NCBI RefSeq assembly: GCF_001421665.1 | Contig: NZ_LMKV01000004.1 | Span: 347 to 64,346 of the forward strand | Length of the DNA stretch: 64,000 nt | DNA from: Sphingobium sp. Leaf26 | GTDB lineage: Bacteria; Pseudomonadota; Alphaproteobacteria; Sphingomonadales; Sphingomonadaceae | Direction of reading: 5' to 3' | Position numbers and translations under genes: made by a program | Shown: piece by piece, positions 16,550 through 57,080 of the stretch | How positions within the stretch are numbered: position 1 is the stretch's first letter | Layout of the letters: the number at the start of each line of letters is the position of its first letter | The notes under the pieces: generated by a model | Seen by the model: the letters and a program-made list of their open reading frames with translations, nothing else | Told to the model about the DNA's origin: nothing | The model's database searches: none

Positions 16550-17806
<1,257 letters not shown>

Positions 17807-18642: not shown

Positions 18643-18672
18643 TCCCCCGCCGCCACCATCACACCTCATTGT

Positions 18673-19695: not shown

Positions 19696-19696
19696 G

Positions 19697-19733
19697 AAAA
19701 GGGGCCGCCAAGACGCATCGTGGCGGCCCTTTT
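19697..19733. terminator. Bidirectional terminator between convergent genes
   Basis: GGGCCGCCA (19702-19710) pairs with TGGCGGCCC (19721-19729), flanked by AAAA on the left and TTTT on the right. It can serve both the methyltransferase gene (plus) and the oxidoreductase operon (minus). Confidence 0.8.
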
Positions 19734-19742
19734 CATGCCGGT

Positions 19743-20711
19743 TCAGGGGAGAAGGATCGTGGTCCCCGTCGTCTCCCGCGCCTCCAACGCCCGATGCGCC
19801 TCGGCGGCGTCGGCCAAGGCGAAACGCTGGCCGATCACGGCCTTCACCACGCCGCGCTGCATCCGGTCGAACAAACGATCGGCCGTATTGGCCAGATCCT
19901 GCGCCGTAGCGATATAGTCGAACAGGGTGGGTCGCGTCACATAGAGCGAACCGCCCCGGCTGAGGTCCAGCAGGCTGACCGGCGGCACCGCGCCTGACGC
20001 ATTGCCATAGCTGACCATCATGGCGCGCCGCTTGAGGCTGGCGAGCGAGGCGCTCCAGCTATCCTTGCCGACGCCGTCATAGACGACATCCACACCCGCG
20101 CCGCCGGTCAGGTCGCGCACCTGCGCGGCCAGATCCTCGAACGGGCCATGCAGGCTGTGATCCGCCACGACCGACGCTGCTTTTCTGGCCGACCCGCAAT
20201 GGGCGATCACTATCACACCCTTGTCGCGCAGCCAGGGTACCAGCACCGATCCGACACCGCCCGCCGCCGCATGGACGAGGGCGACCTGACCGGCCTTCAG
20301 CGGCACGATATCCTCCGCCAGATAGCAGGCGGTCATGCCCTTGAGCATCATCGCCGCCGCATCCTGCGTCGACACGCCATCGGGAATACGGACCACGCGA
20401 TCCGCCGGCACGATCCGGTGCGTGGCATAGGCGCCAAGGCCATTGGCGCAGCCCACCTTGTCCCCGATCGCCAGACCGGAGATGCCGGGGCCGACGGCGG
20501 CGATCACCCCGGCGCCCGCCGACCCCAGCGGGGTGGGGAGGGGGGCCGGGTAGAGGCCAGTGCGGTAATAGGTGTCAATGAAGTTCAACCCGACCGCGTC
20601 CTGCGCGATCAGCACCTCGCCTTCACCCGGCGCGCCCGGATCGAAATCCTCGCGCGCGATGACGTCCGGCCCGCCATGGCTGCGGGCCACCATGCGCCAT
20701 GCGTCGCTCAT
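19743..20711 (-). CDS. NADPH:quinone oxidoreductase-like MDR protein
   Basis: The 322-residue protein is a medium-chain dehydrogenase/reductase of the zeta-crystallin/quinone reductase type. It has DAVGLNFIDTYYRTGLYP near residue 40, characteristic of Qor proteins, and the NADPH-binding AAAGGVGS motif near residue 145. It lacks the cysteine cluster of zinc alcohol dehydrogenases, as expected for quinone reductases. It would reduce quinones by one or two electrons with NADPH. Its ATG shares a base with the stop of the upstream dienelactone hydrolase gene (TGATG), so the two are co-translated. Confidence 0.87.
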   Translation of the reverse strand: MSDAWRMVARSHGGPDVIAREDFDPGAPGEGEVLIAQDAVGLNFIDTYYRTGLYPAPLPTPLGSAGAGVIAAVGPGISGLAIGDKVGCANGLGAYATHRIVPADRVVRIPDGVSTQDAAAMMLKGMTACYLAEDIVPLKAGQVALVHAAAGGVGSVLVPWLRDKGVIVIAHCGSARKAASVVADHSLHGPFEDLAAQVRDLTGGAGVDVVYDGVGKDSWSASLASLKRRAMMVSYGNASGAVPPVSLLDLSRGGSLYVTRPTLFDYIATAQDLANTADRLFDRMQRGVVKAVIGQRFALADAAEAHRALEARETTGTTILLP

Positions 20712-21406
20712 CAGGCGAGCGACTGCGCGAAGAAATCGGCGGTGCGCCCATCCGCGAGTTCCGCGCCGGCTTCGTCGCGGCGATTGCCCATCTCGGCAGC
20801 GAAGCCATGGTCCAGCCCCTCATAGTCGAACAGGGTGACATGGCGGTTGTCGGCCAACCCTTCGTGCATCGCCTTCTGCGCGTCGGGCAGGACGAAATGG
20901 TCGGCGGTCGGCACATGCAGCAGCACCGGCTTGCCGATCGCATGCTGCTCATTCAGCAGTCCGTCGATGCCGACGCCATAATAGCCGACAAAGGCATCGC
21001 CGTCGGTGCGACAGGCCGCCATGAAGGCCATCCGCCCGCCCAGGCAATAGCCGACGAGGCCAACCTTCTCCGCCCCGGCGGCGCGGGCCGCCGTGATCGT
21101 CGCTTCAATGTCGCGAATGCCCTGATCCTGGTTGAACTTCTGCATCAGGCCGATCGCCGTCTGGAACTCTTCAGGCACATCGGCGTCCAGTTCGACCCTC
21201 GGCTCCAACCGCCAGAACAGGTCGGGCGCATAAGCGACGTAACCGGCCTTGGCCCAGCCATCGCATTTGCGGCGGATGCCTTCATTCACGCCGAAGATTT
21301 CCTGAATGACGATGATCGCCGCCTTCGACTCGCCTTCGGGTCGCGCTACATAGGCGTCGAACGAACCGTCGCCGTCCAACGTGCTGATCGGGGTAAAATC
21401 GCCCAT
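20711..21406 (-). CDS. Dienelactone hydrolase family protein
   Basis: The 231-residue alpha/beta hydrolase has the nucleophile motif GYCLGG with cysteine as nucleophile, which is the hallmark of dienelactone hydrolases, then an aspartate and a histidine (DHGF) late in the chain. True DLH opens dienelactones in chlorocatechol breakdown; many chromosomal members act on other esters, and no catechol genes are nearby, so the substrate is uncertain. No signal peptide is present. It is the first gene of a two-gene minus-strand operon with the quinone oxidoreductase. Confidence 0.87.
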   Translation of the reverse strand: MGDFTPISTLDGDGSFDAYVARPEGESKAAIIVIQEIFGVNEGIRRKCDGWAKAGYVAYAPDLFWRLEPRVELDADVPEEFQTAIGLMQKFNQDQGIRDIEATITAARAAGAEKVGLVGYCLGGRMAFMAACRTDGDAFVGYYGVGIDGLLNEQHAIGKPVLLHVPTADHFVLPDAQKAMHEGLADNRHVTLFDYEGLDHGFAAEMGNRRDEAGAELADGRTADFFAQSLA

Positions 21407-21558
21407 GCCGATATCCTTTTATTGGAAAGATAGAGCGCATATTGGCCGTTCCTATGCCGGGCGCAACCGCTGGCTACGTTTAAAATTTGCCTTGTCACCG
21501 CCATTTGCGGCATGACGGCGCGACCGCGATCAATAGGCCGACAGGGAAGGGCAGGGAC

Positions 21559-21810
21559 ATGAAGGTAACCGTCGATGTGGACTGCACTCCGGCAGAAGCC
21601 CGCGCCTTTCTGGGCCTGCCCGATGTGACGCCCATCCATGACAAATACATCCGCACCATGCTGGACGGCTTCGACGGCATTGGCAGCGCCGAACAGATGG
21701 AGACGCTGTTCAAGAGCTTCTCGCCTATGGGCGATGCGGGCATGCGCCTGTTTCAGCAGATGATGAACATGGGCCTGTCGGGCATGTCGGGAAGCAGCGA
21801 CAAGAAATAG
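21559..21810 (+). CDS. DUF6489 family small protein
   Basis: The 83-residue product (MKVTVDVDCTPAEARAFLGLPDV) matches a small conserved family found in sphingomonads, often just upstream of mnmE. Its function is unknown. A methionine-rich C-terminal helix (FQQMMNMGLSGMSG) is notable and recalls phasin-like or PHA-granule-associated segments, but this is only a resemblance. The start at 21559 has GGCAGGGAC immediately upstream. The gap to mnmE is 5 bp, so the genes are likely co-transcribed. Confidence 0.8.
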   Translation: MKVTVDVDCTPAEARAFLGLPDVTPIHDKYIRTMLDGFDGIGSAEQMETLFKSFSPMGDAGMRLFQQMMNMGLSGMSGSSDKK

Positions 21811-21815
21811 CTTTT

Positions 21816-23108
21816 ATGTCCGCGCGCGACGACGACACGATCTTCGCCCTGTCCAGCGGTGCGCCGCCGGCGGGGATAGCGGTCATTCGGATGAGCGGGC
21901 CGCAGGCCGGTGCCGCGCTCCGTGCGCTTGCGCGCCGCCTGCCGATGCCGCGCACCGCCAGCCTTGCCTTGCTCAAAGACCCGCGCGACGATACCCCGCT
22001 CGACCGCGCGCTGCTGCTGTGGCTGCCCGGCCCCGCCACGGTGACGGGCGAGGACATGGCCGAACTCCATTGCCATGGCGGCCGTGCCGTCATCGCTGCA
22101 GTCGAGGACGCGCTGCGCGCGATGTCAGGCCTGCGCCGTGCCGAAGCCGGTGAATTTACCCGCCGGGCCTTCGCCCATGGCCGAATGGACCTGAACGCCG
22201 TCGAGGGCCTGTCCGATCTGCTCGCCGCCGAAACGCAGGGCCAGCGCCGCGCTGCGCTGCTGATGGCGGAGGGGCATTTCTCCCGCCGAATCGACGACTG
22301 GCGCCGGCGCCTACTCGACCTTGGCGCCATGGCGGAAGCCGCACTCGATTTCTCGGATGAGGATGATGTGCCCGACGCCGCGATCGAGCAGCGGATCGGG
22401 GCGGGCATCGCCGCGCTGGCGCGGGATGTCGCCACTATCCTTGCCGCGCCATCGGCGGAGCGGTTGCGCGATGGTGTGCGGGTCGTGCTGGCCGGGCCGC
22501 CCAATGCCGGCAAGTCCACGCTGCTCAATGCGTTGGTCGGACGTGACGCCGCAATCGTATCGGATATCGCCGGCACCACCCGCGACCGTATCGAAGTGCC
22601 TGCCGCGATCGGTGGCACCGCTTTCCTCTTCACCGACACCGCCGGCCTGCGGGACGAGACAGGCGATGCGATCGAGGCCATCGGCATAGACCGCGCCCGC
22701 GCCGCTTTGGACGCCGCCGACATCATCCTGTGGCTCGGCGACCCCGCCGACCTGCCCCGCGCGGATGCCATCCTGGTCGCCGCGCAAAGTGACCGCAACG
22801 ATGCCGGACGCCCCGGCCTGTCCCTCTCCGCCCACAGCGGCGCGGGCATGGACGCGCTCATCGACATGCTCCGCACCCGCGCCGCAGCGCTGCTGCCGGG
22901 GGAGGGCGACTATGCCCTGCATGCGCGACAGAGACAGCGAGTTGGACAGTTGATCGAGCATCTTCACGCTGCCGGCACGACCAGCGACCTGCTCGTCATT
23001 GCCGAGGATCTCCGTCTCGCCCGCAGCGCCATCGACGCCCTGACCGGGCAAGCCGGCACGGAGGACATGCTGGACCGTCTCTTTTCCGGCTTCTGCATCG
23101 GCAAATAG
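21816..23108 (+). CDS. mnmE: tRNA modification GTPase MnmE
   Basis: MnmE, with MnmG, installs carboxymethylaminomethyl (or related) groups at uridine 34 of certain tRNAs, using a formyl-tetrahydrofolate-type donor and GTP hydrolysis. The 430-residue protein has the N-terminal folate-binding domain (ALSSGAPPAGIAVIRMSGP), the helical domain with the inserted G domain (G1 GPPNAGKSTLLN near residue 227, G3 DTAG) and the C-terminal FCIGK with the catalytic cysteine. The length is near the usual 430-455. It is followed by mnmG after a parS-like site. Confidence 0.97.
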   Translation: MSARDDDTIFALSSGAPPAGIAVIRMSGPQAGAALRALARRLPMPRTASLALLKDPRDDTPLDRALLLWLPGPATVTGEDMAELHCHGGRAVIAAVEDALRAMSGLRRAEAGEFTRRAFAHGRMDLNAVEGLSDLLAAETQGQRRAALLMAEGHFSRRIDDWRRRLLDLGAMAEAALDFSDEDDVPDAAIEQRIGAGIAALARDVATILAAPSAERLRDGVRVVLAGPPNAGKSTLLNALVGRDAAIVSDIAGTTRDRIEVPAAIGGTAFLFTDTAGLRDETGDAIEAIGIDRARAALDAADIILWLGDPADLPRADAILVAAQSDRNDAGRPGLSLSAHSGAGMDALIDMLRTRAAALLPGEGDYALHARQRQRVGQLIEHLHAAGTTSDLLVIAEDLRLARSAIDALTGQAGTEDMLDRLFSGFCIGK

Positions 23109-23112
23109 AAAC

Positions 23113-23128
23113 TGTTCCACGTGGAACG
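23113..23128. other. parS-like ParB-binding site 1
   Basis: TGTTCCACGTGGAACG, a 16-bp near-palindrome centred on CACGTG, lies 4 bp after mnmE. It matches the chromosomal parS consensus TGTTTCACGTGAAACA with symmetrical T-to-C / A-to-G changes, a common functional variant, plus one end mismatch. Confidence 0.75.
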
Positions 23129-23180
23129 CTTTTGACCCTGCCCTCTTAACCTGCCTCCTGCTTTCTGGTAAGGGCGCCCC

Positions 23181-25031
23181 ATGCAAACAAGCTATGATGT
23201 GATCGTGGTCGGTGGCGGCCATGCCGGCTGCGAGGCAGCGGCGGCGGCCGCGCGCAAGGGCGCGTCTGTGGCCCTGTTGACTTTCGCGCGTGAGACGGTC
23301 GGCGCCATGTCCTGCAATCCGGCGATCGGGGGCCTGGGCAAGGGCCATCTGGTCCGCGAGGTCGATGCGCTGGACGGCCTGATCGCCCGCGCCGCCGACG
23401 CCGCCGCCATCCATTATCGCATGCTCAACAGCAGCAAGGGCGCCGCCGTGCAGGGGCCGCGCGTGCAGGCGGATCGCAAGCGCTATCGCGCGGCCATCCA
23501 CCAGATGCTCGACGCGCAGGCCGGGCTGGACATTGTCGAGGGTGAAGCCGATCATCTGCTGGTCGAGCATGGCACGATTGTCGGCATCGCGCTGGCCGAT
23601 GGCCGCACATTGCAAGCCCCGGCCATCGTGCTGGCGACTGGCACCTTCCTGGGCGGTAAGCTCTTCCGCGGCGACGAGCGCGAAACCGGGGGCCGGATCG
23701 GCGAACGCGCCGCCGGCGCGCTGGGTGCCCAGTTGCGCAATCTCGGACTGCCTATCGCCCGGCTCAAGACCGGTACCCCACCGCGCCTCGATGGGCGTAC
23801 GATCAATTGGGCTGCACTCGAAACCCAACCATCGGATGGTGGGCTATGGACCATGTCGCCGCTGTCCGCAGGCCGCATCCTGCCGCAGCTCGATTGCGCC
23901 ATCACCCGCACCAATGATGCGACCCATGCGATCATCCGCGACGGCCTGGGACGCTCGCCTCTGTTCAGCGGTGCGATCGAGGGACGGGGGCCGCGCTATT
24001 GCCCGTCGATCGAGGACAAGGTGTTGCGCTTCGGCGACCGCGACGGCCATCAGATTTTCCTGGAGCCGGAAGGGCTGGACGACCCGCTGGTCTATCCCAA
24101 TGGCATCAGCACATCCCTGCCCACCGATGTTCAGCTCGCCATGGTCCGCTCCATGCCGGGGCTGGAGCAGGTCGAGATTGTGGTGCCCGGCTATGCAGTC
24201 GAATATGACCATGTCGATCCGCGTACGCTCGATTCCACGCTGGAGGTGCGCCAACTGCCCGGCCTGTTCTGCGCCGGCCAGATCAACGGCACCACCGGCT
24301 ATGAGGAAGCAGCCGCGCAAGGCCTGATCGCCGGTATCAATGCCGCCGCCCGCGCCCGCGATGAAGCGCCGCTGATCCTCGACCGCGCCAGTTCCTATAT
24401 CGGCGTGATGATCGACGATCTTGTCCTTCAGGGCGTGACCGAACCCTATCGCATGCTGACCGCGCGCGCCGAATATCGCCTGCGCCTGCGGGCCGACAAT
24501 GCCGAGACGCGGCTCGGTCCGATCGGCCTTGCCCATGGCGTCATCGGCACGGATCGCGCCGCCCGACTGACCGCACGGCAGACGTTGCGCGGACAGATTG
24601 ACGCAGAACTGGACCGGCCGATGACCGCCAGCGAAATGGCGCGCGCCGGTGCTGCCGTTCGACAGGATGGCGCGCGCCGCACCCTGTTCGAATGGGCGCG
24701 CTTCCCTGAGGTGGACCGCACCCTGATCTGCGCACTCGCCCCGACACTGCGCGACGCACCCGTTGACCTGCGCGACGAGATATTGGAGGACGCCCATTAT
24801 GCGCCCTACCTCCAGCGGCAGGATGCAGAGATTGCCGAACTGCGCCGCAACGAGCGGGTCGCCATTCCTGCCGATTTTGATTTTCAGACCATTGGGGGCC
24901 TTTCCACCGAAATGATCGAGCGACTGGACGCCGCCCGCCCGGATACGCTGGCCGCTGCCGGCCGTATTCGTGGCATCACCCCTGCGGCGCTGGCCGCCAT
25001 CCTTGTCCATGTCCGTCGGGTGGCCGCATGA
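23181..25031 (+). CDS. mnmG: tRNA uridine-5-carboxymethylaminomethyl modification enzyme MnmG
   Basis: MnmG is the FAD-dependent partner of MnmE in wobble-uridine modification. The FAD-binding motif [11 protein letters not shown] is near residue 11. The family signatures [21 protein letters not shown] and [12 protein letters not shown] follow, then the second nucleotide-binding region and the C-terminal helical domain that binds MnmE and tRNA. At 616 residues it is full length. It overlaps rsmG by 4 bp (ATGA). Confidence 0.98.
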
Positions 25032-25672
25032 CCGAAGACGAAGCCCGCGCCTGGTTGCAGGCGCAATTCGATGTTTCACGTGAAACATGGGATCTGCTCG
25101 AACGCTATGTCGCGATCCTTCTTTCTGCGGCAGACGAGCAGAACCTGATCGCTGAGTCCACCAAGGCCCACATCTGGACACGGCATATCATGGATTCGGC
25201 ACAGTTGCTGAACCATGCCGGCGATGATGACGGGCGGGACTGGATCGACTTGGGATCAGGCGCCGGTCTGCCCGGCATCGTCATCGCCTGCTTGGTCGAT
25301 CGGCCGTTGATGATGGTTGAATCCCGTCGCAAGCGCATAGACTTTCTCAACGATGTCATCGCCGATCTCGATCTCGGCAACGCCCGCGTCTTCGGAGGAC
25401 GGGTCGAAACGGTCCCCGCGACCAAGGCGGCCGTTATCAGCGCGCGCGCCTATGCGCCCCTGCCCAAGCTGATCGCCTCCGCGCTGCACCTGTCCGATAA
25501 AAAGACCGTCTGGGTGCTGCCAAAAGGGCGAAATGCGCAAAATGAACTGGAGGCGGCGCGTCCGGCATGGCAAGGTGTGTTTCACGTGGAACCGAGCGTA
25601 ACGGACGCCGACAGCGCCCTGATCATCGCTCGGGGCCTCACACCCGCTGGCAAGAAGAAAGGTCGTCCATGA
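25028..25672 (+). CDS. rsmG: 16S rRNA (guanine-N7) methyltransferase RsmG
   Basis: RsmG methylates G527 of 16S rRNA. The 214-residue protein has the SAM-binding motif [12 protein letters not shown] near residue 75 and the [11 protein letters not shown] segment. It overlaps mnmG upstream (ATGA) and parA downstream (ATGA). Two parS-like sites lie inside its coding sequence: a perfect one near the 5' end, read as DVSRET, and a variant near the 3' end, read as VFHVEP. The coding sequence has therefore been kept compatible with two ParB sites. Confidence 0.96.
25072..25087. other. parS: Perfect parS centromere site 2
   Basis: TGTTTCACGTGAAACA matches the widely conserved chromosomal parS consensus at all 16 positions and is a perfect palindrome. 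It lies within rsmG, 0.6 kb before parA. ParB should nucleate here and spread to form the segregation complex. Confidence 0.93.
25578..25593. other. parS-like ParB-binding site 3
   Basis: TGTTTCACGTGGAACC matches the parS consensus at 14 of 16 positions, including the central TTTCACGTG half. It lies in the 3' part of rsmG, 76 bp before parA, where ParB could also influence parAB expression. Confidence 0.78.
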
Positions 25673-26451
25673 TCCGCATCGCCATAGCGAACCAGAAGGG
25701 TGGGGTGGGCAAGACCACGACCGCGATCAATCTCGCGACCGGCCTTGCCGCCACCGGGCTTCGGGTGCTGCTGGTCGATCTCGACCCGCAGGGTAATGCG
25801 TCGACGGGCCTGGGCATCGGTCAGGCCGAACGTGCCCAATCCAGCTATGACCTGCTGGTTGGCAATTGCGCGTTGGACGATACGATCGTCACCACCCGCG
25901 TACCCAAGCTGGATCTCGTCCCGGCGACGCAGGATCTGTCGGGCGCCGAGATCGAACTGATCGACTATGAGGAGCGTACCCACCGGCTCGCGCGCGTACT
26001 GGATGAAGCCCAGCCGGGGCGCTGGGACATCTGCCTGATCGACTGTCCGCCTTCGCTCGGTCTGTTGACGATCAACGCCATGGTTGCGGCGCAATATCTG
26101 CTCGTCCCGCTTCAATGCGAGTTTTTCGCGCTGGAGGGGCTGTCGCAACTGCTCCAGACGGTCGAACGCATTCGCGGTCGCTTCAACCCCGGCCTGTCGA
26201 TCATGGGCGTGGCGCTGACCATGTACGACCGCCGCAACCGCCTGACCGATCAGGTCGCCGACGATGTCCGCGCCTGCCTGGGTGACCTCGTCTTCTCGAC
26301 CGTCATTCCGCGCAATGTGCGTCTGTCCGAAGCGCCCAGCCATGGCGTCCCCGCCTTGATCTACGACTTCCGCTGTTCGGGGTCTGAAGCCTATATGCGT
26401 CTGGCGCGTGAGCTGATCGCGCGCCTGCCCCGACAGGAGGTTGCCGCTTGA
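25669..26451 (+). CDS. parA: Chromosome partitioning ATPase ParA
   Basis: ParA is the Walker-type ATPase whose nucleoid gradient moves ParB-parS complexes apart after replication. The 260-residue protein starts at [17 protein letters not shown], with the deviant Walker A lysine, and carries the DLDPQGNASTG and LIDCPPSLG motifs. The open frame upstream belongs to rsmG read out of frame; the ATG at 25669 overlaps the rsmG stop. There is no N-terminal DNA-binding extension, so it is the chromosomal (Soj-like) short type. It is coupled to parB by a TTGA overlap. Confidence 0.97.
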   Translation: MIRIAIANQKGGVGKTTTAINLATGLAATGLRVLLVDLDPQGNASTGLGIGQAERAQSSYDLLVGNCALDDTIVTTRVPKLDLVPATQDLSGAEIELIDYEERTHRLARVLDEAQPGRWDICLIDCPPSLGLLTINAMVAAQYLLVPLQCEFFALEGLSQLLQTVERIRGRFNPGLSIMGVALTMYDRRNRLTDQVADDVRACLGDLVFSTVIPRNVRLSEAPSHGVPALIYDFRCSGSEAYMRLARELIARLPRQEVAA

Positions 26452-27389
26452 ACGACGAAACGACCGACAAGCCGAAGATCGCCAAGCGCCCCCACGGTCT
26501 GGGCCGGGGCCTGTCCGCCCTGTTGGGCGATGCCACCCGCGAAGAACCGGTTGCCGCGACCAATCCGCCGGCCAATGGCAAGTCCGTGCAGAGTATCGAG
26601 GTGGCACTGATACAGCCGCACCCGGAACAGCCGCGCCGCCATTTCGATGAGGGCGCGTTGCAGGAACTGGCCGACAGCATTGCCAAGCGCGGCGTGATCC
26701 AGCCGATCATCGTGCGGCCCCATGGCGGCGGTTTCCAGATCATCGCCGGCGAACGCCGCTGGCGCGCGTCGCAGCGGGCGCAGCTGCATCGCATCCCCGC
26801 GATCGTCCGCGACTTTGACGAGCAGGAAACGCTCGAAATCGCGCTGATCGAGAATATCCAGCGCGAAGATCTGAACCCGATCGAAGAGGCGGAAGCCTAT
26901 CGCAAGCTGATCGCCGAATTTCATCATAGCCAGGAAGCGCTCGGCCGCATCGTCGGCAAGTCGCGCAGCCATGTCGCCAACCTGATGCGCCTGCTGGAAT
27001 TGCCCAAGACAGTGCAGCAGCAGGTGATGGAAAGCCGGATCAGCATGGGCCATGCCCGCGCCCTGATCGGCCTGCCCGATTCCGAAAAGCTGGCCCGCCA
27101 GATCGAGGAAAAAGGCCTGTCGGTCCGCGACACCGAACAGTTGGTCCGTCGTGTCAAGACCGGCGTGGAAGCCCCCGTCTCGCGGCGCGCAAGCAGCGCG
27201 GGCGCTGGATCGACCAGCGACAAGGATCCCGACATCGCCGCGTTGGAACAGCATCTGGCCGATATATTGGGGCTGAAGGTCGAGATCGCGCATGAAGGCG
27301 GATCGGCCGGCGGCCATCTGTCGCTGCGCTATTCCAACCTCGACCAGTTGGACATGCTATGCCAGCGCCTGTCGGGCGAACGTATCTGA
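26448..27389 (+). CDS. parB: Chromosome partitioning protein ParB
   Basis: ParB binds parS and acts as a CTP-dependent sliding clamp. The 313-residue protein has an N-terminal ParA-interaction segment (RPHGLGRGLSALLGD), the CTP-binding domain with GERRWRA, the helix-turn-helix region (SRSHVANLMRLLELP) and the C-terminal dimerisation domain. The start is probably TTG at 26448, overlapping the parA stop as TTGA; the conserved GLGRGLSALLGD comes only 17 residues later, so no later start is likely. Confidence 0.97.
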   Translation: MNDETTDKPKIAKRPHGLGRGLSALLGDATREEPVAATNPPANGKSVQSIEVALIQPHPEQPRRHFDEGALQELADSIAKRGVIQPIIVRPHGGGFQIIAGERRWRASQRAQLHRIPAIVRDFDEQETLEIALIENIQREDLNPIEEAEAYRKLIAEFHHSQEALGRIVGKSRSHVANLMRLLELPKTVQQQVMESRISMGHARALIGLPDSEKLARQIEEKGLSVRDTEQLVRRVKTGVEAPVSRRASSAGAGSTSDKDPDIAALEQHLADILGLKVEIAHEGGSAGGHLSLRYSNLDQLDMLCQRLSGERI

Positions 27390-27511
27390 ACGACCGGGCT
27401 TTGCTGCGTTCTGCGGCAACAGGCCAGCCGCGCCCGACGCGCATCATGATGGTTCCTTTCCGCCCATAACTACCACTGGCCTTTTGCCCCCTCGCTCCCT
27501 AGCGTGGGGCC

Positions 27512-30112
27512 ATGGCCGACATGCTTTCCACCGCCGCCGCGGCGCCCACCGTCATTCGCCGTCAGGACTATAGTCCGCCCGACTGGCTCGTCCCCGATAT
27601 CGCGCTCGACTTCGACCTCGATCCCGCCCGCACGATCGTTCGCACGGCTCTCTGCGTCACGCGCAATGGCGATCATGACCGGCCCCTGCGGCTGGATGGC
27701 GACGGCATCGTCCCGCTAGCCGTCTGCGTAGATGGCCGCCAGTTGACGCAGGAGGAATGGCATCTGGAGGCCGGCGCGCTCATCATCGCGTTGCCTGATG
27801 CCGCCCACAAGGTCGAAACGCTGGTGGAATTGGCACCGGAAGGCAATAGCAAGCTGATGGGCCTTTATGCCAGCGGCGGCCTGCTCTGCACCCAGTGCGA
27901 GGCGGAAGGCTTCCGGCGCATCACCTTCTTCCCTGACCGGCCCGACGTCCTGTCGCGCTACAGCGTGCGTCTGGAAGCGGACAAGGCGCGCTTCCCGGTC
28001 CTGCTCGCCAATGGCGATCCGATCGAGCAGGGCGACTTGCCCGAAGGCCGCCACTGGGCGCGCTGGAACGATCCCTTTCCCAAGCCCTGCTATCTCTTCG
28101 CACTGGTCGCCGGCGATCTGGCCTGCAACGCCGACCGGTTCGTGACGATGAGCGGGCGTGAGGTGACGCTCGGCATCTGGGTGAAGGAAGCCGACCTGCC
28201 CCGTACCGACCATGCGATGCAGGCGCTCAAGAACAGCATGGCGTGGGACGAGCGTGTCTATGGCCGCGAATATGACCTGGACGTGTTCAACATCGTTGCC
28301 GTCGCTGACTTCAACTTCGGCGCGATGGAGAATAAGGGCCTCAACATCTTCAATTCGCGCTATATTCTTGCCGATCCCGAAACCGCGACCGACATCGACT
28401 ATGACGGCGTGGAAGGGGTGGTCGCGCATGAATATTTCCACAACTGGTCGGGCAATCGCGTCACCTGCCGCGACTGGTTCCAGCTCAGCCTGAAGGAAGG
28501 CTTCACTGTTTTCCGCGACCAGAATTTCTCCGCCGACATGGGCAGCCATGCGGTGAAACGGATCGAGGATGTCCGCATCCTGCGCGCCGGCCAGTTTCAG
28601 GAGGATAGCGGCCCGCTGGCGCATCCGGTGCGGCCCGAATCCTACATGGAAATCAGCAACTTCTACACGGCCACCATCTATAACAAGGGTGCCGAGCTGA
28701 TCCGCATGATGGCGCTGATGATGGGACCGGAACGGTTCCGCGCCGGCACCGACCTCTATTTCGATCGCCATGACGGGCAGGCCGCCACCTGCGAGGATTT
28801 CGTGCTGGCGATGGAGGAGGGCGGGGGACAAGACCTTACCCAGTTCCGCCGCTGGTATGAGCAGGCCGGCACGCCACATGTCCGCGCGCTCCTCAGCCAT
28901 GATCCCGTCAGCCAAAGCGTCGAACTGACGCTGGAGCAGGGCATCCCGCCAACGCCGGGCCAGAACGACAAGCAGGTGATGGCGATCCCGTTGCGCACCG
29001 CCCTGTTCGACGCAGCGACCGGCACCCATCGGGGCGACGAACTGCTGCTGCTGACCGAGGGAAATCAAAGCTTCACCTTTACCGGTTTCGCCAGCGCGCC
29101 GATCCTGTCGATCAACCGCGGTTTCTCTGCCCCGGTGATCGTGGAAACCAACCGCAGCCAAGCCGATCTCGCTTTCCTGTCGGCCCATGACGACGATCCC
29201 TTCGCCCGTTATGAGGCGATGCAGCAGCTGATGGTCAATGTGCTGGTCGGCCGCATCGCCGGGCAGGCGGTGGATGATGCACCGGTCATCGAGGCGGTGC
29301 GTAACACCATCACCGATGCCGCGCTCGACCCCGCCTTCATCGCCGAGGCTATCCGCCTGCCGAGCGAGGCCTATCTGGGCGACCAGATGCGCGTCGTCGA
29401 TCCCGATGCGATCCACGCTGCGCGCGATGCCCTGCAACAGAAGATCGGCGCGGAGCTGGAGCCTTTATGGCGCGATATCCACGCGAAGACGAAGGCCGAC
29501 GCCTTTGCCCTGTCGCCGTCCGCCAAGGGGGCGCGCAAGCTGCGCAATGTGGCGCTTCTCTATCTGGTGGCCTCTGGCGCGCGTGACGGCCCCGCCATCG
29601 CCTTCGCGCAGTTCGACGCGGCCGATAATATGACCGAACGGCAGGCCGCGCTCGCCACGCTCGCCAGCGGCACCAGCGCGGAACGGGAAGCGGCGCTCGA
29701 CATCTTCTACAATCGCTACCGGGATGATGCCCTGACGCTGGACAAATGGTTCCAGACCCAGGCTTTCGCCTTCCATCCGGACACGGTCGAACTGGTCGCG
29801 CAACTGGGCGAGCATAAGGATTTCACTTTGGCCAATCCCAACCGGGTGCGGTCGCTATTCGGTGCCTTCGCGGCCAATCAGTGGGCCTTCCATCATGCGT
29901 CGGGCAAGGGATATCGCCTGCTGGCCGACTGCATCATCGCACTGGACAGGCTCAATCCGCAGACCGCCGCCCGGCTGGTGCCGCCGCTCGGCCGCTGGAA
30001 GCGCTTCGAGGAAGGCCGCGCCGCCCTGATGCGCGCAGAACTGCAACGCATCCTCACCCAGCCCGGCCTGTCCAAGGATGTGACGGAGCAGGCGGGGAAG
30101 AGTCTGGATTAA
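27512..30112 (+). CDS. pepN: Aminopeptidase N
   Basis: This M1-family zinc metallopeptidase removes N-terminal residues from peptides in the cytoplasm. It has the exopeptidase motif GAMENKGLN near residue 272 and the zinc site HEYFH at residues 306-310, with the second-ligand glutamate in SLKEGFTVFRDQ. The 866-residue length and the DUF3458-type C-terminal domains match the E. coli PepN subgroup. The first of two nearby ATGs is used; no signal peptide is seen. It ends at a bidirectional terminator opposite the Mla operon. Confidence 0.95.
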   Translation: MADMLSTAAAAPTVIRRQDYSPPDWLVPDIALDFDLDPARTIVRTALCVTRNGDHDRPLRLDGDGIVPLAVCVDGRQLTQEEWHLEAGALIIALPDAAHKVETLVELAPEGNSKLMGLYASGGLLCTQCEAEGFRRITFFPDRPDVLSRYSVRLEADKARFPVLLANGDPIEQGDLPEGRHWARWNDPFPKPCYLFALVAGDLACNADRFVTMSGREVTLGIWVKEADLPRTDHAMQALKNSMAWDERVYGREYDLDVFNIVAVADFNFGAMENKGLNIFNSRYILADPETATDIDYDGVEGVVAHEYFHNWSGNRVTCRDWFQLSLKEGFTVFRDQNFSADMGSHAVKRIEDVRILRAGQFQEDSGPLAHPVRPESYMEISNFYTATIYNKGAELIRMMALMMGPERFRAGTDLYFDRHDGQAATCEDFVLAMEEGGGQDLTQFRRWYEQAGTPHVRALLSHDPVSQSVELTLEQGIPPTPGQNDKQVMAIPLRTALFDAATGTHRGDELLLLTEGNQSFTFTGFASAPILSINRGFSAPVIVETNRSQADLAFLSAHDDDPFARYEAMQQLMVNVLVGRIAGQAVDDAPVIEAVRNTITDAALDPAFIAEAIRLPSEAYLGDQMRVVDPDAIHAARDALQQKIGAELEPLWRDIHAKTKADAFALSPSAKGARKLRNVALLYLVASGARDGPAIAFAQFDAADNMTERQAALATLASGTSAEREAALDIFYNRYRDDALTLDKWFQTQAFAFHPDTVELVAQLGEHKDFTLANPNRVRSLFGAFAANQWAFHHASGKGYRLLADCIIALDRLNPQTAARLVPPLGRWKRFEEGRAALMRAELQRILTQPGLSKDVTEQAGKSLD

Positions 30113-30120
30113 AGGAAAAA

Positions 30121-30154
30121 GGCCGGTCGCGTCATCGAAAGCGACCGGCCTTTC
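30121..30154. terminator. Bidirectional terminator between pepN and the Mla operon
   Basis: GGCCGGTCGC (30121-30130) pairs perfectly with GCGACCGGCC (30141-30150), preceded by AAAAA and followed by TTTC. Confidence 0.82.
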
Positions 30155-30156
30155 GA

Positions 30157-30801
30157 TCAATTCTTGACCGCAGCAGCCCAGGCGGCGACGTCCACCGCCA
30201 CCTTGTTCGCGGCGGCATTGAGCGGGGCGCCGACCGTGGTCGCCTCGATCTTGCCACTCACCGGCGCACTGGCGGTGAAGCGCTGACGGGCCAGCGCCAC
30301 ACCATTGGGAGTGGTCAGTACCGCATCATAGGTGACGATCGCGCTATGGCTCGCCTCGTCCACGGTGAAGGCGACCAGTTCGCCACTCAGCCGCTGTCCG
30401 CCGTCGCCGGAAAACTGTCCGGCATCCAGCACCACCCGGTCGGTCGTCGCCGTGATCGTCTCCGCCAACAGCCGGCGGAACAGGTGGCGCGGCGTATCGG
30501 CCCATTGCACCTTGGTCACATAGGCGACGCTCGTCGGCCCCAATTGAACCGGCACGCGCACCGTATCCAGCATCTTTGGCGCGTCGGGATCAGCCACGAT
30601 CAGCGTCCGCCCGCCACCGGCCACACGACCGGCGCCGGCCGGCACCTTCTGCGCGGCATCCAGCGTCAGCAACTGCGCCGGCGGCTTGGCGCCGATGGAG
30701 ACGCAGCCCGACAGCAAAAGGCCAGCCGCCAGCGCCATCACGGCGCTCTGGTGTTTCACATGGAACATGGTCCGCATCTTTCTCATCATGGCCCCCGACA
30801 T
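30157..30801 (-). CDS. ABC-type transport auxiliary lipoprotein (PqiC/Mla-associated)
   Basis: The product is a lipoprotein of the ABC_trans_aux type that accompanies MCE transporters and probably contacts MlaD in the periplasm or sits in the outer membrane. The lipobox LLSGC is near residue 32, followed by a mature domain of about 180 residues. The ATG at 30801 shares a base with the mlaD stop (TGATG). Later ATGs at 30786, 30777 and 30768 are also possible, and the last would give a more ordinary signal peptide starting MFHVKH. That stretch also resembles a parS site (30752-30767). Confidence 0.82.
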   Translation of the reverse strand: MSGAMMRKMRTMFHVKHQSAVMALAAGLLLSGCVSIGAKPPAQLLTLDAAQKVPAGAGRVAGGGRTLIVADPDAPKMLDTVRVPVQLGPTSVAYVTKVQWADTPRHLFRRLLAETITATTDRVVLDAGQFSGDGGQRLSGELVAFTVDEASHSAIVTYDAVLTTPNGVALARQRFTASAPVSGKIEATTVGAPLNAAANKVAVDVAAWAAAVKN

Positions 30802-49850: not shown

Positions 49851-50452
49851 GCCGCCAAAACGCCGCGCACGCGCAGAAAGTCAAGCAAAGGCAGCAAGGG
49901 CAGGCCCTGAATCGCGAACTGGCTTCCCTCGACCTTGCTGAATAACTGCACCCCCGGCCCCTCGATCCGGTAACAGCCCACACACCAGCGCAGTTCGTCC
50001 CAGTCGGCATCCAGATAGGATTGGATGAAGGCGTCGGACAAAGGCCGCACCGTCATCCGCACCCGCTCGACATGCCGCCAGATCGGCTCGCCGTTCAGAA
50101 CGATCACCGCCGCGCTGTGCAAATGATGTACCCGGCCCGACAGCAGGCGCAGGATTCGTGTCGCATCCGCCCGATCGACCGCCTTGTCGATCATCTCGCC
50201 CCGGTCTTCGCCCTCACCGATGCTGAGGGTCTGGTCGCATCCCAGCACCAGCGCACCGGGCACCCGACGCGACACCTTGAGCGCCTTCAACTCCGCCAGC
50301 GCATCGGCCAGCGCCCGCGCGTCAAGCCCGTCGGCGCGCAGCGCCTCCTTGGCCGCGTCCTCGTCCACGCCGGGCGACAATGCCTCGAACGGCACCTGCG
50401 CCGCGCTCAGCAACGCCTGGCGGCTGGCACTTTGCGACGCCAGTACGATCAT
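49847..50452 (-). CDS. Maf-family nucleotide pyrophosphatase
   Basis: Maf proteins hydrolyse dTTP/UTP or modified nucleotides and were first seen as septum-formation inhibitors. The 201-residue protein opens LASQSASRQALL (the conserved Ser-Arg binding loop) and has PGVDEDAAKE and LGCDQTLS with the catalytic aspartate. Which of the Maf (dTTP/UTP) or YceF (m7GTP) specificities applies is not certain. It is joined by ATGA overlaps to ppsR upstream and aroE downstream. Confidence 0.93.
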   Translation of the reverse strand: MIVLASQSASRQALLSAAQVPFEALSPGVDEDAAKEALRADGLDARALADALAELKALKVSRRVPGALVLGCDQTLSIGEGEDRGEMIDKAVDRADATRILRLLSGRVHHLHSAAVIVLNGEPIWRHVERVRMTVRPLSDAFIQSYLDADWDELRWCVGCYRIEGPGVQLFSKVEGSQFAIQGLPLLPLLDFLRVRGVLAA

Positions 50453-51276
50453 ATCTCATGCCCTTCCGCCAGTTCGCGGTCGTTGAACAGGTTGATGATG
50501 GCGGCGGCCGCTTCCTCGATCGACCGGCGGGTCATGTCGATCACCGGCCAGCCATTGTCGGCGAACATGCGCCGGGCGAAGGCCAGTTCCTCCTGCACCT
50601 TCTCATTGTCGACATAGGCGGTTTCAGGCGCCTGATTAAGCGACAGCAGCCGGTTGCGCCGGATCTGGATCAGCCGCTCCGGGCTGACGGTCAGGCCGAC
50701 GACCATCGGATGCTTCAGCCTGTAGAGGCTGCGCGGCGGCGGCGATTCCGGCACCAGCGGGATATTGGCGGTCTTGTATCCGCGATTGGCAAGGTAGATG
50801 GACGTCGGCGTCTTGGACGCGCGCGACACGCCGGCCAGCAATATGTCGGCCTCTTCCCAATTTTCATGCCCCACGCCATCATCATGGGCAATCGTGAACT
50901 GGATCGCCTCGATCCGGGCGAAATAGGCCTCGTCCAATATATGTTTGCGCCCCGGCCGGGTGCGGGTCTCCTGCCCCAATATGTTGGACAGCGCGTCGGC
51001 CACGCTGTCCAGCGCCGCGACATGGGGCAGGCCGAGCGCGCGGCAGCGCGTTTCCAGCCGGCGTCGCAGCATATGATTGGTGAGCGTGAACAGCACCAGC
51101 CCCGGATTGGCGCTGATCTCCTCCATGATCCGGTCCAGATGCACTTCGGATCGCACCATCGGCCAGAAATGGCGGATCGCCTCGACATTTTCGAACAGCC
51201 CGATCGCCGCCTTGGCGATATTCTCCAGCGTTTCGCCGGTGGAGTCAGACAGAAGATGCAGGTGGATGCGCGCCAT
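50449..51276 (-). CDS. Pyruvate, phosphate dikinase regulatory protein (PPSR, DUF299; RP001 type)
   Basis: DUF299 proteins are bifunctional serine/threonine kinases and pyrophosphorylases that switch PEP synthase or pyruvate phosphate dikinase on and off. The start at 51276 gives 275 residues, typical of the family: LHLLSDSTGETLE at the N-terminus, the P-loop GVSRASKTPTSIYLA near residue 155 and the C-terminal NGWPVIDMTRRSIEE. Residues encoded above 51276 read through the origin region and are not protein. Its orthologue RP001 flanks the replication origin in Caulobacter. Confidence 0.95.
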   Translation of the reverse strand: MARIHLHLLSDSTGETLENIAKAAIGLFENVEAIRHFWPMVRSEVHLDRIMEEISANPGLVLFTLTNHMLRRRLETRCRALGLPHVAALDSVADALSNILGQETRTRPGRKHILDEAYFARIEAIQFTIAHDDGVGHENWEEADILLAGVSRASKTPTSIYLANRGYKTANIPLVPESPPPRSLYRLKHPMVVGLTVSPERLIQIRRNRLLSLNQAPETAYVDNEKVQEELAFARRMFADNGWPVIDMTRRSIEEAAAAIINLFNDRELAEGHEI

Positions 51277-51565
51277 GGGGACATCTCTGTTGGAGCCCTG
51301 TGGATAAAGCAAGGGATGAAATTGTGGATAAGTTGAGCGGCTTTTCCCGTCCCCACTGACCGGAATCTTATCCACAGGCCCCCAACAGGCCCCCGATTCC
51401 ATCCACAGCCTGTGGGTAACGGGGATAGAGACTCTGACTCGCCACGACTTCCGTGACTCCCGCGAGTCAACATGTTGGCAAAAGCGGGCACAGCGCATAA
51501 ACCCCGCTGCCAACCGACCTACTATCTCCATCATCCCTTGAATCTAAATAATAAGAGAGAATGTG
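51277..51565. other. oriC: Probable chromosomal replication origin (oriC)
   Basis: The 289 bp between the divergent ppsR and hemE genes hold three perfect DnaA 9-mers (TTATCCACA): 51299-51307 and 51323-51331 on the minus strand, and 51368-51376 on the plus strand. Two degenerate boxes (51399-51407 and 51411-51419) form a CCACAG/CTGTGG inverted pair. A short AT-rich stretch (51536-51560) could be the unwinding element. Six GANTC sites lie inside (51363, 51395, 51430, 51436, 51455, 51464), a seventh overlaps 51540, and another is at 51242. In Caulobacter crescentus the origin lies between these same two gene families. Assignment rests on boxes and context; no skew calculation was possible. Confidence 0.78.
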
Positions 51566-52636
51566 ATGCGCGAAGACGCTCCGGTGCGCCTGACGGACAA
51601 GCCGCTCCTGGCCGTGCTCAAAGGGGATCGTCCCGCCATGCCGCGTCAGTCACCGCCCATCTGGCTGATGCGCCAGGCCGGCCGCTATCTTCCCGAATAT
51701 CGGGCGTTGCGGGCGGACAAGGGCGGCTTCCTCGAACTCGTCTATGACAGCGCCGCCGCCGCCGAAGTCACGCTCCAGCCGCTGCGTCGTTTCGGCTTCG
51801 ACGGCGCGATCCTCTTTTCCGACATCCTGATCGTCCCTTATGCCATGGGACAGGATCTCTGGTTCGAGGCCGGCGAAGGCCCCCGCCTCGCCCCGATCCT
51901 CGCCGAAACGGACCTGTCCGCGCTGACACCCGATTTCAGCCGCTTCGAGGCCATCTACGAGACGGTGCGGCAGGTGAAGGCGGCTTTGGACCCCAGCGTC
52001 ACCTTCCTGGGCTTTGCGGGCAGTCCCTGGACCATTTCGACCTATATGGTGGCGGGGCAGGGCAGCAAGGATCATGGGCTGGCCCGCCGCATGGCCTATC
52101 AGGAACCGGACCGCTTCGCCGCGCTGATCGACGCCATTATCGACGCCACCGTCATCTACCTCTGCGGCCAGATCGAAGCCGGCGTGGAGGCCGTCCAACT
52201 GTTCGACAGTTGGGCCGGCAGCCTGTCGCCGCTGCAATTCCAGCGCTGGGTCATCGAGCCGAACAGGCGGATCGTCGCGCGGGTGAAGGCGCTTCATCCC
52301 GATATTCCGGTGATCGGTTTCCCCAAAGGGGCCGGCGCGAAACTGGCCGACTATGCGGCGCAGACCGGCGTCGATGCCGTGGGCGTCGATGAAACGATCG
52401 ACCCGCACTGGGCCAATGCCGCGCTACCCGCCGGCATGCCCGTGCAGGGCAATCTCGATCCGCTGGCACTGATCGCGGGCGGTCGGCCGGTCGAGGAGGC
52501 GGTCGACAGGATCCGCGCCGCCTTTGCCGACCGGCCCCATATCATGAACCTGGGCCATGGCATTTTGCCCGACACCCCCATTGCACATGTCGAAGCGCTC
52601 CTTAGCTATGTGCGAAAGGAAGGAGTCCGCGACTGA
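51566..52636 (+). CDS. hemE: Uroporphyrinogen decarboxylase
   Basis: HemE decarboxylates uroporphyrinogen III to coproporphyrinogen III in haem synthesis. The 356-residue protein has both family signatures, PIWLMRQAGRYLPEYR near residue 30 and GFAGSPWTI near residue 150, with the substrate aspartate in FSDILIVPYAMG. The ATG at 51566 is preceded by a GTG codon and AGAGAG; an ATG at 51561 is followed at once by a stop. Its promoter must lie within or next to the origin, as in Caulobacter. The stop shares a base with the start of hemJ. Confidence 0.97.
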   Translation: MREDAPVRLTDKPLLAVLKGDRPAMPRQSPPIWLMRQAGRYLPEYRALRADKGGFLELVYDSAAAAEVTLQPLRRFGFDGAILFSDILIVPYAMGQDLWFEAGEGPRLAPILAETDLSALTPDFSRFEAIYETVRQVKAALDPSVTFLGFAGSPWTISTYMVAGQGSKDHGLARRMAYQEPDRFAALIDAIIDATVIYLCGQIEAGVEAVQLFDSWAGSLSPLQFQRWVIEPNRRIVARVKALHPDIPVIGFPKGAGAKLADYAAQTGVDAVGVDETIDPHWANAALPAGMPVQGNLDPLALIAGGRPVEEAVDRIRAAFADRPHIMNLGHGILPDTPIAHVEALLSYVRKEGVRD

Positions 52637-53348: not shown

Positions 53349-54203
53349 TCAGGTCGGATCGACCGCGATATTGTCGATCAACCGTGTCTTGCCCAGCCTG
53401 GCCGCACCCAGCAGCCGGGCAGGCCGGTCCAGCACGATCATCGGTTCCAGCGTGGCCGCGTCGCACAGCGTCACATAGTCGATCGGGTCAAAGCCATGGG
53501 CCGCCAGCGTGGCGATCGCCCTGGCCAGCGCCCGCTCGACCGGGTCGCCCTTTTCGATCTGCCGCTTCGCCTCGCCCAGCGCACGGGGCAGGGCCAGCGC
53601 CGCCTTGCGCTCGTCGTCGCTGAGATAGGCGTTGCGGGAGGAGAGGGCGAGGCCGTCCTCGGCCCGCTGCGTCGGCAGGCCGATAATCTCGACCGGAATG
53701 TCGAGGTCCGCGACGAAGCGGCGGATCACGGCCAACTGCTGATAATCCTTCTCGCCGAATATCGCGACGTCGGGGCGCACCTGGTTGAACAGCTTGGTCA
53801 CCACCGTCGCCACGCCATCGAAATGGCCCGGCCGCGCCGCCCCGTCCAGCCCGTCGCTGATCCCCGACACCCGGATATTGGTGGCGTATCCGGCCGGGTA
53901 CATCCCATCGACGCTCGGCGCCCAGAGGATATCGACGCCCACCGCCTGCAACATCTGCGCGTCCTTCGCCTCCCGCCGGGGATAGGCATCCAGATCCTCG
54001 TTCGGGCCGAACTGCCGGGGATTGACGAAGATCGACACGACCACATGCCGCCCATGCCGCCGCCCTTCCTCGACCAATGCCATGTGCCCGTCATGCAATG
54101 CGCCCATCGTGGGCACCAGTACCACAGGCTTTCCGTCGCTTTTCAGCATATCGACGGCGGCACGAAGGGCGGGCAGGTCACGCAATATTTGCACGGAAGT
54201 CAC
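53349..54203 (-). CDS. panC: Pantoate-beta-alanine ligase
   Basis: PanC joins pantoate and beta-alanine with ATP to make pantothenate, the precursor of CoA. The 284-residue protein has the ATP-binding PTMGALHDGHMALV (HxGH), FVNPRQFGPNEDLDAYPR, GEKDYQQLAVIRR and SSRNAYLSDDER with the KMSKS-like loop. It points against its neighbours and is divergent from mipZ. CoaE, later in the same pathway, is 4 kb away across the origin. Confidence 0.96.
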   Translation of the reverse strand: MTSVQILRDLPALRAAVDMLKSDGKPVVLVPTMGALHDGHMALVEEGRRHGRHVVVSIFVNPRQFGPNEDLDAYPRREAKDAQMLQAVGVDILWAPSVDGMYPAGYATNIRVSGISDGLDGAARPGHFDGVATVVTKLFNQVRPDVAIFGEKDYQQLAVIRRFVADLDIPVEIIGLPTQRAEDGLALSSRNAYLSDDERKAALALPRALGEAKRQIEKGDPVERALARAIATLAAHGFDPIDYVTLCDAATLEPMIVLDRPARLLGAARLGKTRLIDNIAVDPT

Positions 54204-54302
54204 GGCTCCGATAAGGGCAAAATCCTATGGCTGTCCTGCTAGGCTCGTGCCGGCGCGACCGTCAACACGCATTGCGACAATCAACGGGGTTTACTGGGGC
54301 CA

Positions 54303-55109
54303 ATGGGCAATCCGCAGCCGCATCTTATCGTCTTCGCCAATGAAAAAGGCGGGACCGGCAAGTCGACCACGGCGGTCCATACCGCCATCGCCCTGTCCGC
54401 GCTTGGTCACAAGGTCGGCCTGATCGACCTCGATCCGCGCCAGCGCACCGTCACCCGCTATATGGAAAATCGGCAGGAAACCGCCAGGCGGCGCGGCATC
54501 GACCTGCCCATGCCGGCGTTCGACGTGTTCACCGGCGACAGCATCGCCGCGCTGGACGATCAGGTGATTTCGCTTGCGCTCGGCAACGACTATCTGGTGG
54601 TCGACACGCCGGGCCGCGACGATATCTATGCCCGCCACCTGGCCCCGCACGCCAACACGCTGGTCACGCCGATGAACGACAGCTTCGTCGATTTCGACCT
54701 CATCGGCCAGGTCGATCCGGAAACCTTCAAGGTGCGCAGCCCGTCCTTCTATTCCGAACTCATCTTCGACGCGCGCAAGGCGCGGGCGAAGGTCGATGGC
54801 GTCACCATCGACTGGGTGGTGCTGCGCAACCGTGTCCAGCATCATGACGCCCGCAACAAGAAGCGGGTCGGGGATGCGCTGATGGAACTCTCCCGCCGCG
54901 TGGGGTTCCGCGTGATTCCGGGCCTTTCGGAACGTGTCATCTTCCGCGAGCTGTTTCCTTCGGGCCTCACCCTGCTCGACAAGGGGCATCTGGGCGAACT
55001 GGGCGTCAGCCACATCGCGGCCCGGCAGGAACTGCGCGAAATGGTGTCGGGCCTTGCGCTGCCGACCCTTGAGGGGACCGGCGCGTTGGACCTGCTCGGC
55101 GCCGCCTGA
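54303..55109 (+). CDS. mipZ: Division-plane positioning ATPase MipZ
   Basis: MipZ is a ParA-like ATPase that binds ParB at the origin-proximal parS and forms a polar gradient that blocks FtsZ except at mid-cell. The 268-residue protein has the deviant Walker A KGGTGKST at residues 15-22, DLDPRQRT, VVDTPGRDD and DSFVDFDLIGQVDPETF, which set it apart from ParA. Its site 2.7 kb from the probable origin, with parA/parB and parS in the same window, fits that role. It overlaps the downstream J-domain gene by one base. Confidence 0.93.
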   Translation: MGNPQPHLIVFANEKGGTGKSTTAVHTAIALSALGHKVGLIDLDPRQRTVTRYMENRQETARRRGIDLPMPAFDVFTGDSIAALDDQVISLALGNDYLVVDTPGRDDIYARHLAPHANTLVTPMNDSFVDFDLIGQVDPETFKVRSPSFYSELIFDARKARAKVDGVTIDWVVLRNRVQHHDARNKKRVGDALMELSRRVGFRVIPGLSERVIFRELFPSGLTLLDKGHLGELGVSHIAARQELREMVSGLALPTLEGTGALDLLGAA

Positions 55110-55546: not shown

Positions 55547-56919
55547 GCCACCATTTCCACCCGACCCTGCTGCGCGACTATGATCTGCGCGGCCGGGTCG
55601 GGGACACGCTGCATGCGGCCGATGCCTGGGCGCTGGGGCGCAGCTTCGGCACGGTGATCGCGCGCTCGGGCGGCCAGCGAATCGCGGTCGGCTATGATGG
55701 CCGGCTGAGTTCGCCAATGCTGGAATCCGCGCTGATCGAGGGGCTGACGCACAGCGGAATCGACGTGCTGCGCATCGGCCTTGGCCCGACGCCGATGCTA
55801 TATCATGCCGAATCGACGAGCCAGGTGGACGGCGGCGTCCAGATAACCGGCAGCCATAATCCCGGCGACCAGAATGGCTTCAAGCTGGTGAAGGGTCATG
55901 CGCCCTTTTTCGGCGCGGATATCCAGGCCCTGGGCGTCATGGCGGCGTCGGGCGACTGGGACTCTGGCGTGGGGCAGGTCGAAACGGTCGCCATCATGGA
56001 CGCCTATGCCGCGCGGCTGGTGCAGGGATTCGACGGCCCGGCCTGCCGCATCGGCTGGGACGCGGGCAATGGCGCCGCCGGCCCGGTGGTGGAGAGACTG
56101 GCGCAATTGCTCCCCGGTGAGCATCATCTGCTCTTCACCGATATAGACGGTCATTTCCCCCACCATCATCCCGATCCTTCCGATGATCGGAATCTGGCCG
56201 ATCTGCGCGCGCTCGTCCGGGACAAACAGCTCGATTTCGGTGTGGCTTTCGATGGCGATGGCGACCGGATCGGCGTGATCGACAGCCTTGGCCGCACCTT
56301 GCCGGGCGACCAGCTTCTCGGCCTGTTCGCGCAAGTCGTGCTGAAAAACCGCCCCGGTGGCAGAATCGTCGGCGATGTGAAGGCCAGCCAGACCGTCTTC
56401 GACCGCATCGCCGCGCTGGGTGGCCAGCCCGACATGTGGAAGACCGGGCACAGCCATATCAAATCCAGAATGAAGCAGATTGGCAGCCCGCTCGGCGGGG
56501 AGACCAGCGGCCATCTCTTTTTTGCCGACGATTATCCCGGCTATGACGATGGCCTTTACGCCGCCGTCCGCCTGATCCGCGCCGTCGGGTCGCTGGGGCG
56601 GAGCGTCACCGCGCTGCATGACGCCATGCCTGCGACCGTCATCACACCGGAATGGCGGTTCCCGATCGCGGACTCCCGCAAGTTCGCCGTGGTCGCGGAG
56701 ATTCTCGCCCGGCTGGAGCAGGACGGCGCCGATATCTGCACCATAGACGGAGTCAGGGTGCGGTCCGGCGACGGCTGGTGGCTGCTGCGCGCTTCCCATA
56801 CCGAGGCGGCATTGGTCGCCCGCGCCGAATCCACGAATCAGGCCGATCTCGACCGGCTTGTCGCGCAAATCGACGCCCAACTCGGCGAATCGGGTGTGAC
56901 AAGACCGGAATCACGCTGA
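55543..56919 (+). CDS. Phosphomannomutase/phosphoglucomutase
   Basis: This alpha-D-phosphohexomutase interconverts hexose 1- and 6-phosphates for nucleotide-sugar and polysaccharide synthesis. The 458-residue protein has the phosphoserine loop TGSHNPGDQNGFK near residue 105, the metal loop DGDGDRIGVID near residue 240, the sugar-binding GETSGH and the phosphate-binding RASHTEA near the C-terminus. The start is GTG at 55543, overlapping the previous stop (GTGA). The 428 bp after it (56920-57347) hold only a candidate sRNA and presumably the fadL-family promoter. Confidence 0.92.
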   Translation: MSHHFHPTLLRDYDLRGRVGDTLHAADAWALGRSFGTVIARSGGQRIAVGYDGRLSSPMLESALIEGLTHSGIDVLRIGLGPTPMLYHAESTSQVDGGVQITGSHNPGDQNGFKLVKGHAPFFGADIQALGVMAASGDWDSGVGQVETVAIMDAYAARLVQGFDGPACRIGWDAGNGAAGPVVERLAQLLPGEHHLLFTDIDGHFPHHHPDPSDDRNLADLRALVRDKQLDFGVAFDGDGDRIGVIDSLGRTLPGDQLLGLFAQVVLKNRPGGRIVGDVKASQTVFDRIAALGGQPDMWKTGHSHIKSRMKQIGSPLGGETSGHLFFADDYPGYDDGLYAAVRLIRAVGSLGRSVTALHDAMPATVITPEWRFPIADSRKFAVVAEILARLEQDGADICTIDGVRVRSGDGWWLLRASHTEAALVARAESTNQADLDRLVAQIDAQLGESGVTRPESR

Positions 56920-57080
56920 TTCGCCTATTTTTATCGCTATACTTTGGTCTGATTTTCACCGGGAGGTCTGACTCATTCCCTTACGGAAAGCGGCACCCGA
57001 GATAACGATTGCATAAAACGCAACGATGCTTGTCTGTTTCGCATTTGCGACAATCATCGCTGCACCGCAAAAGGAACTCG

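Follow-up and report, generated by a model that had tools for sequence, protein, structure and literature searches.

The short gap between the divergent genes ppsR and hemE raises the question of whether it holds the origin of replication (oriC) of this Sphingobium-like chromosome. In the window, i.e., the whole stretch of 64,000 nucleotides analysed, the gap is 289 bp long and lies between ppsR on the minus strand and hemE on the plus strand, at the place given in the original prediction (Table 1). An alternative start of hemE is possible at the GTG at 51563. A divergent pair of hemE and an RP001 (COG1806) orthologue with a gap between them is the arrangement of the alphaproteobacterial hemE–RP001 origin. 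The origin of Caulobacter crescentus, which the original prediction put between RP001 and hemE, is indeed placed there in the literature, where hemE–COG1806 is described as the likely ancestral origin frame (PMC1914354). In Sphingopyxis granuli TFA, oriC is reported near hemE, where DoriC predicts it for most Sphingomonadaceae (PMC4741004). As that source already places oriC by hemE in most of the family, the finding presented here is sound and expected. Judging from the sequence, we put the probability that the ppsR–hemE gap is the chromosomal oriC at about 0.93, because the gene context, the cluster of DnaA boxes, its conservation, the proximity of parS and a change of strand bias in relatives agree. 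The same lines of evidence, with conservation taken over 81 gaps, support the origin originally proposed.

Table 1. Positions of the predicted origin, its elements and its flanking genes in the window.
Feature	Position	Strand	Remarks
Four parS-like sites	23113–30767		at 23113, 25072, 25578 and 30752; at most 2 mismatches
ppsR (RP001/COG1806 type regulator)	50449–51276	-	left flank; start at 51276
ppsR–hemE gap	51277–51565		predicted oriC, 289 bp; genes divergent
DnaA box R1, TTATCCACA	51299–51307	-	perfect; kept in 31 of 32 aligned sequences
DnaA box R2, TTATCCACA	51323–51331	-	perfect; differs among relatives
Seven GANTC sites (CcrM-type)	51363–51544		starts at 51363, 51395, 51430, 51436, 51455, 51464 and 51540
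DnaA box R3, TTATCCACA	51368–51376	+	perfect
Degenerate DnaA box R4, CCATCCACA	51399–51407	+	2 mismatches; left half of inverted pair with R5
Degenerate DnaA box R5, TTACCCACA	51411–51419	-	1 mismatch; right half of inverted pair with R4
Conserved 41-bp element, here GTTGGCA ... TGCCAAC	51474–51514		from alignments of relatives
Three-base rhythm before AT-rich stretch	51518–51536	+	DnaA-trio-like at best; weak against shuffles
AT-rich stretch, candidate unwinding element	51521–51560		best 40-mer
hemE, uroporphyrinogen decarboxylase	51566–52636	+	right flank; ATG at 51566

The original prediction had counted three perfect boxes for DnaA and two degenerate ones within about 120 bp, and this count was reproduced: the five boxes span 121 bp, with the three perfect ones lying within 78 bp. 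No exact TTATNCACA was found in the 64-kb window outside the gap, and the cluster is unique in the window, as had also been claimed. With one mismatch allowed, TTATNCACA occurs eight times in the window, four of these in the gap. As shuffling gave 12.2 on average, more than the eight observed, the signal lies in the clustering of the boxes, not in their number.

The clustering was scored in 5630 overlapping 300-bp stretches covering 853,697 bases of the same genome; this sample comprised the window and 43 further stretches, picked partly for holding other boxes. A score of 11 was reached by one stretch, that of the origin, and the best place elsewhere scored 6.5. Next in rank came the origin's own neighbour and then a tandem box pair on contig C33. 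The DnaA-box cluster is thus above chance, as in the hemE–RP001 origins. A search of the whole draft genome (G000; 4,822,147 bases in 33 contigs) found 15 copies of TTATCCACA, three of them in the gap, and 26 of TTATNCACA. Two perfect boxes outside the scored sample, at C1:269208 and C28:113983, are single and have no exact TTATNCACA neighbour in the genome-wide search. The richer cluster elsewhere that the original prediction had named as counting against it was found neither in the 853,697 sampled bases nor in the whole-genome pattern search; the best other place in the sample, the pair on C33, is a bare tandem pair and was rejected as a candidate.

The conservation of the gap was examined in relatives collected by a PpsR search, from which the best 80 of 565 confirmed loci were taken, giving 81 gaps together with our own. 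Two of the shuffle tests below use all 81 gaps, redundant ones included, while the rest drop 11 near-identical gaps and keep 70. In all 80 loci, hemE lies upstream of ppsR on the opposite strand, and the gap, measured to the projected hemE start, is 270–949 bp long (median 292). At least one perfect box was present in all 24 loci of the core Sphingobium clade (our own grouping) and at least two in 22 of them; for the 56 loci outside this clade, the corresponding numbers were 26 and 14. Near the ppsR match, an exact box was found in four of 18 single-contig relatives (G089, G094, G095 and G107, with one or two each) and in none of the other 14, a result that counts against the origin. Boxes with at most two mismatches, meanwhile, averaged 5.3 per gap in the 42 non-redundant gaps outside the Sphingobium-like group, and 0.8 once these gaps were shuffled. 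These counts indicate that perfect boxes are characteristic of Sphingobium and a few others, and that degenerate boxes are general. The inverted pair CACA-N1-4-TGTG occurs in 58 of the 81 gaps, with about one expected by shuffling. In alignments of 32 and 44 of the 81 gaps, the best-kept features were this inverted pair, one GANTC site and GTTGGCA, which is present in 63 of the 81; R5 ranks among the best-kept features of the family. The single exception to the conservation of R1 (L127) has a box of its own shifted by a few bases. Single copies of TTATCCACA elsewhere in the genome would suit a cluster arisen by chance, but the probability of this is practically nil: among the 5630 scored stretches, the score was matched by the origin itself alone, and the boxes are kept across the 81 gaps far above the shuffled rate, which already refutes chance.

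Reading 5' to 3' past the boxes, the gap contains a run of GANTC sites, then the 41-bp element and then the AT-rich stretch, which reaches hemE. The 41-bp element is possibly part of the hemE promoter or a protein site; a sigma-70 promoter scan of the gap found nothing. The AT-rich stretch was originally placed at 51536–51560. It exists, and the A+T content of its best 40-mer is 68% against 35% for the window; the enrichment is real but modest, and its modesty weighs against the origin. Ahead of this stretch runs a three-base rhythm, in which the gap may resemble the BUS unwinding module as described in PMC8287927, a DnaA box lying within 16 bp of three or more DnaA-trios; in the alignment, many relatives also have a box-like TCNAC directly before the rhythm. 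The gap differs from that module in two respects: the trio signal is slight over shuffles, and a clear box within 16 bp of the rhythm is absent from the gap of this genome. Runs with a middle A averaged 3.71 on the top strand and 3.19 on the bottom strand, barely above the shuffled 3.37 and 2.71, and the window itself has 4 and 2.

From these features we infer how the gap would act as an origin. DnaA-ATP would bind the five boxes at 51299–51419, including the inverted pair R4/R5, and would spread toward the AT-rich region 51521–51560, the putative site of melting. Melting would allow helicases to load in both directions, and the nearby parS sites would then separate the new origins.

The CtrA consensus is TTAA-N7-TTAA and that of IHF is WATCAANNNNTTR. 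No CtrA site with at most one mismatch was found in the gap and no exact match to WATCAANNNNTTR in the window; TTAA-N6/7-TTAA is present in six of the 81 gaps. The gap shares with Cori of Caulobacter crescentus the location at hemE/RP001-COG1806, DnaA boxes, parS nearby and GANTC sites, but Cori is described with five CtrA sites, an IHF site and weak G- and W-boxes (PMC1914354, PMC4468827), whereas here there are three perfect boxes, and consensus sites of the Cori type for CtrA and IHF are absent at the stringencies given. The origin described for Sphingopyxis granuli TFA shares this gene context and likewise has conserved DnaA boxes and a putative unwinding element (PMC4741004); it belongs to another genus, and the likeness is one of description, not box by box. 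The gap gives a draft genome of the Sphingobium type its likely origin, and a hemE–ppsR origin with an inverted pair is seen to be kept across 81 gaps of the family. This gives a base for asking why GANTC is packed in the origin and how the origin and parS were rearranged in one clade.

None of 2000 shuffles equalled the seven GANTC sites of the gap. Per kb, the gap has 24 sites, whereas a set of 28 other gaps in the window has 2.06 (18 sites in 8717 bases; genes called by our own script). The 70 non-redundant gaps contain a mean of 4.3 sites against 1.3 after shuffling, and 78 of the 80 relatives have at least two. Across all 81 gaps, seven control pentamers of like form occurred 0.4 to 1.75 times per gap, compared with 4.5 for GANTC. 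A second crowd of eight GANTC sites in 289 bases was observed at 56671–56960 of the window, for the most part within the last portion of a gene. Among the proteins encoded by the genome are a GcrA-family member and a single protein with a RAMA domain; the RAMA domain, which we take to mark CcrM, matched Caulobacter alone among 14 controls. GANTC is reported to be enriched in the intergenic DNA of this bacterial class, and sites are also reported in the Caulobacter origin (PMC3973325).

Methylation control of this predicted origin is possible. In its specific form, the origin would be gated by CcrM: the GANTC cluster, interleaved with the boxes and the 41-bp element, would silence a half-methylated new origin or set GcrA-dependent transcription of hemE through the origin. 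Such gating would be an alphaproteobacterial counterpart of Dam/SeqA control. We regard it as unlikely. Caulobacter without CcrM has a DNA content profile like that of the wild type, and the authors considered CcrM unneeded for the control of initiation (PMC3973325), a result which makes gating less likely. In Agrobacterium, CcrM is described as acting on the second origin and not visibly on ori1 (PMC11514494).

Strand bias was followed with GC skew and with GGGNAGGG, which we take to be the E. coli KOPS. In Sphingobium sp. 15-1 (L114, G119), boxes lie at positions 2526794 and 2526906 on a contig of 3.41 Mb. To the left, nine stretches of 20 kb between 1200 and 2527 kb contained GGGNAGGG 6 times on the plus and 41 times on the minus strand; to the right, eleven stretches from 2527 kb round to 920 kb contained 51 and 23, with the first 20 kb still at 4 plus and 7 minus. 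The GC skew of this genome is noisy; its local cumulative minimum lies about 45 kb to the right, and the dip at the locus itself is shallower. In G089, the sampled GC skew stays below zero between 800 and 2293 kb and is mostly above zero from 2333 kb onward, round to 120 kb, with the cumulative minimum at a distance of 41 kb from the locus; the skew of G111 changes sign near the locus, with the minimum 16 kb away. Flanks compared at 80 and 160 kb differed in the expected sense in eight of ten further genomes; flank skew was near zero in G103 and G078, and the 120 kb profiled in G095 contained no clear turn. In our own contig, C4, there is no local switch: GGGNAGGG occurs 12 times on the plus and 3 times on the minus strand to the left and 7 and 2 times to the right, and GC skew is below zero on either side of the gap until it becomes positive about 33 kb to the right. 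The skew minimum proposed as a check spoke roughly for the prediction, with turning points 16–45 kb from the locus in 15-1, G089 and G111 and agreement in eight of ten flank comparisons; our own contig has no switch, and G103, G078 and G095 were uninformative. An origin on contig C1, suggested by an apparent GGGNAGGG switch near 320 kb among the matches listed, was rejected after direct counting.

The distance of the cumulative minima from the gap in these three genomes, together with our own contig, would fit a reading in which DnaA, through the boxes, controls a promoter region for hemE and ppsR and the true origin lies elsewhere, perhaps tens of kb off. We consider this very improbable, since the minima are blunt and shift with gene order, the 102-kb contig C4, covered in all but 346 bases, holds no second box cluster, the sample offers nothing better elsewhere than a bare pair, and this gap is where the origin is known to lie in Caulobacter and predicted to lie in the family (PMC1914354, PMC4741004).

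In G089, hemE and hemJ are followed by rho and genes matching the parS-bearing block of the window; in our own genome this block is found on the left side of the origin, and panC comes after hemJ, the G089 counterpart of panC lying to the left. Beyond hemJ, panC is found in 23 of the 24 core Sphingobium loci (L098 stops before this point) and in none of the 56 others, while rho is found there in 53 of the 56 non-core loci (L140, L163 and L175 are on contigs that stop before it). It is possible that this reshuffling of genes hides the switch of strand bias in our own contig; 15-1 has the same panC order, with rho and parS to the left, yet the change of polarity is present. The rearranged regions of the window are 16436–30767 and 53349–55109; the left block comprises rho, trmE, gidAB, parAB and parS, the names beyond rho being our own reading.

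Four of the five parS-like sites of the genome sit 20–28 kb from the gap, forming a parS cluster near the predicted origin. The fifth is at C21:20980–20995, near the end of a 21.5-kb contig, which perhaps belongs to a second replicon.

Several minor observations were made on DnaA boxes at other places. The tandem pair at C33:142107–142125 (L004:10108–10126) consists of two perfect boxes head to tail, one base apart, and lies directly after a Cupin_5 gene. The same pair is present in Sphingobium sp. 15-1 at G119:C1:630537–630555 (in L252), with flanks similar to those of our genome. Of 94 genomes of the genus, 29, our own included, have a single copy of the motif TTATCCACA-N-TTATCCACA, and none has its reversed control; the motif may serve as a reservoir for DnaA or as a control site. 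In 16 of the 18 single-contig relatives, TTATCCACA is rarer than its reversed control. An exception is G107, with 43 copies against 13; three of them lie within 146 bp at C1:2322615–2322760, away from the ppsR match at 1850976. Apart from the boxes, a low-GC stretch (44.5%) at L007:9901–11817 (about 330–332 kb of contig C1) carries a ParA-like gene beside a SIR2-like gene, both named by our own reading, and is possibly a small defence or mobile element.
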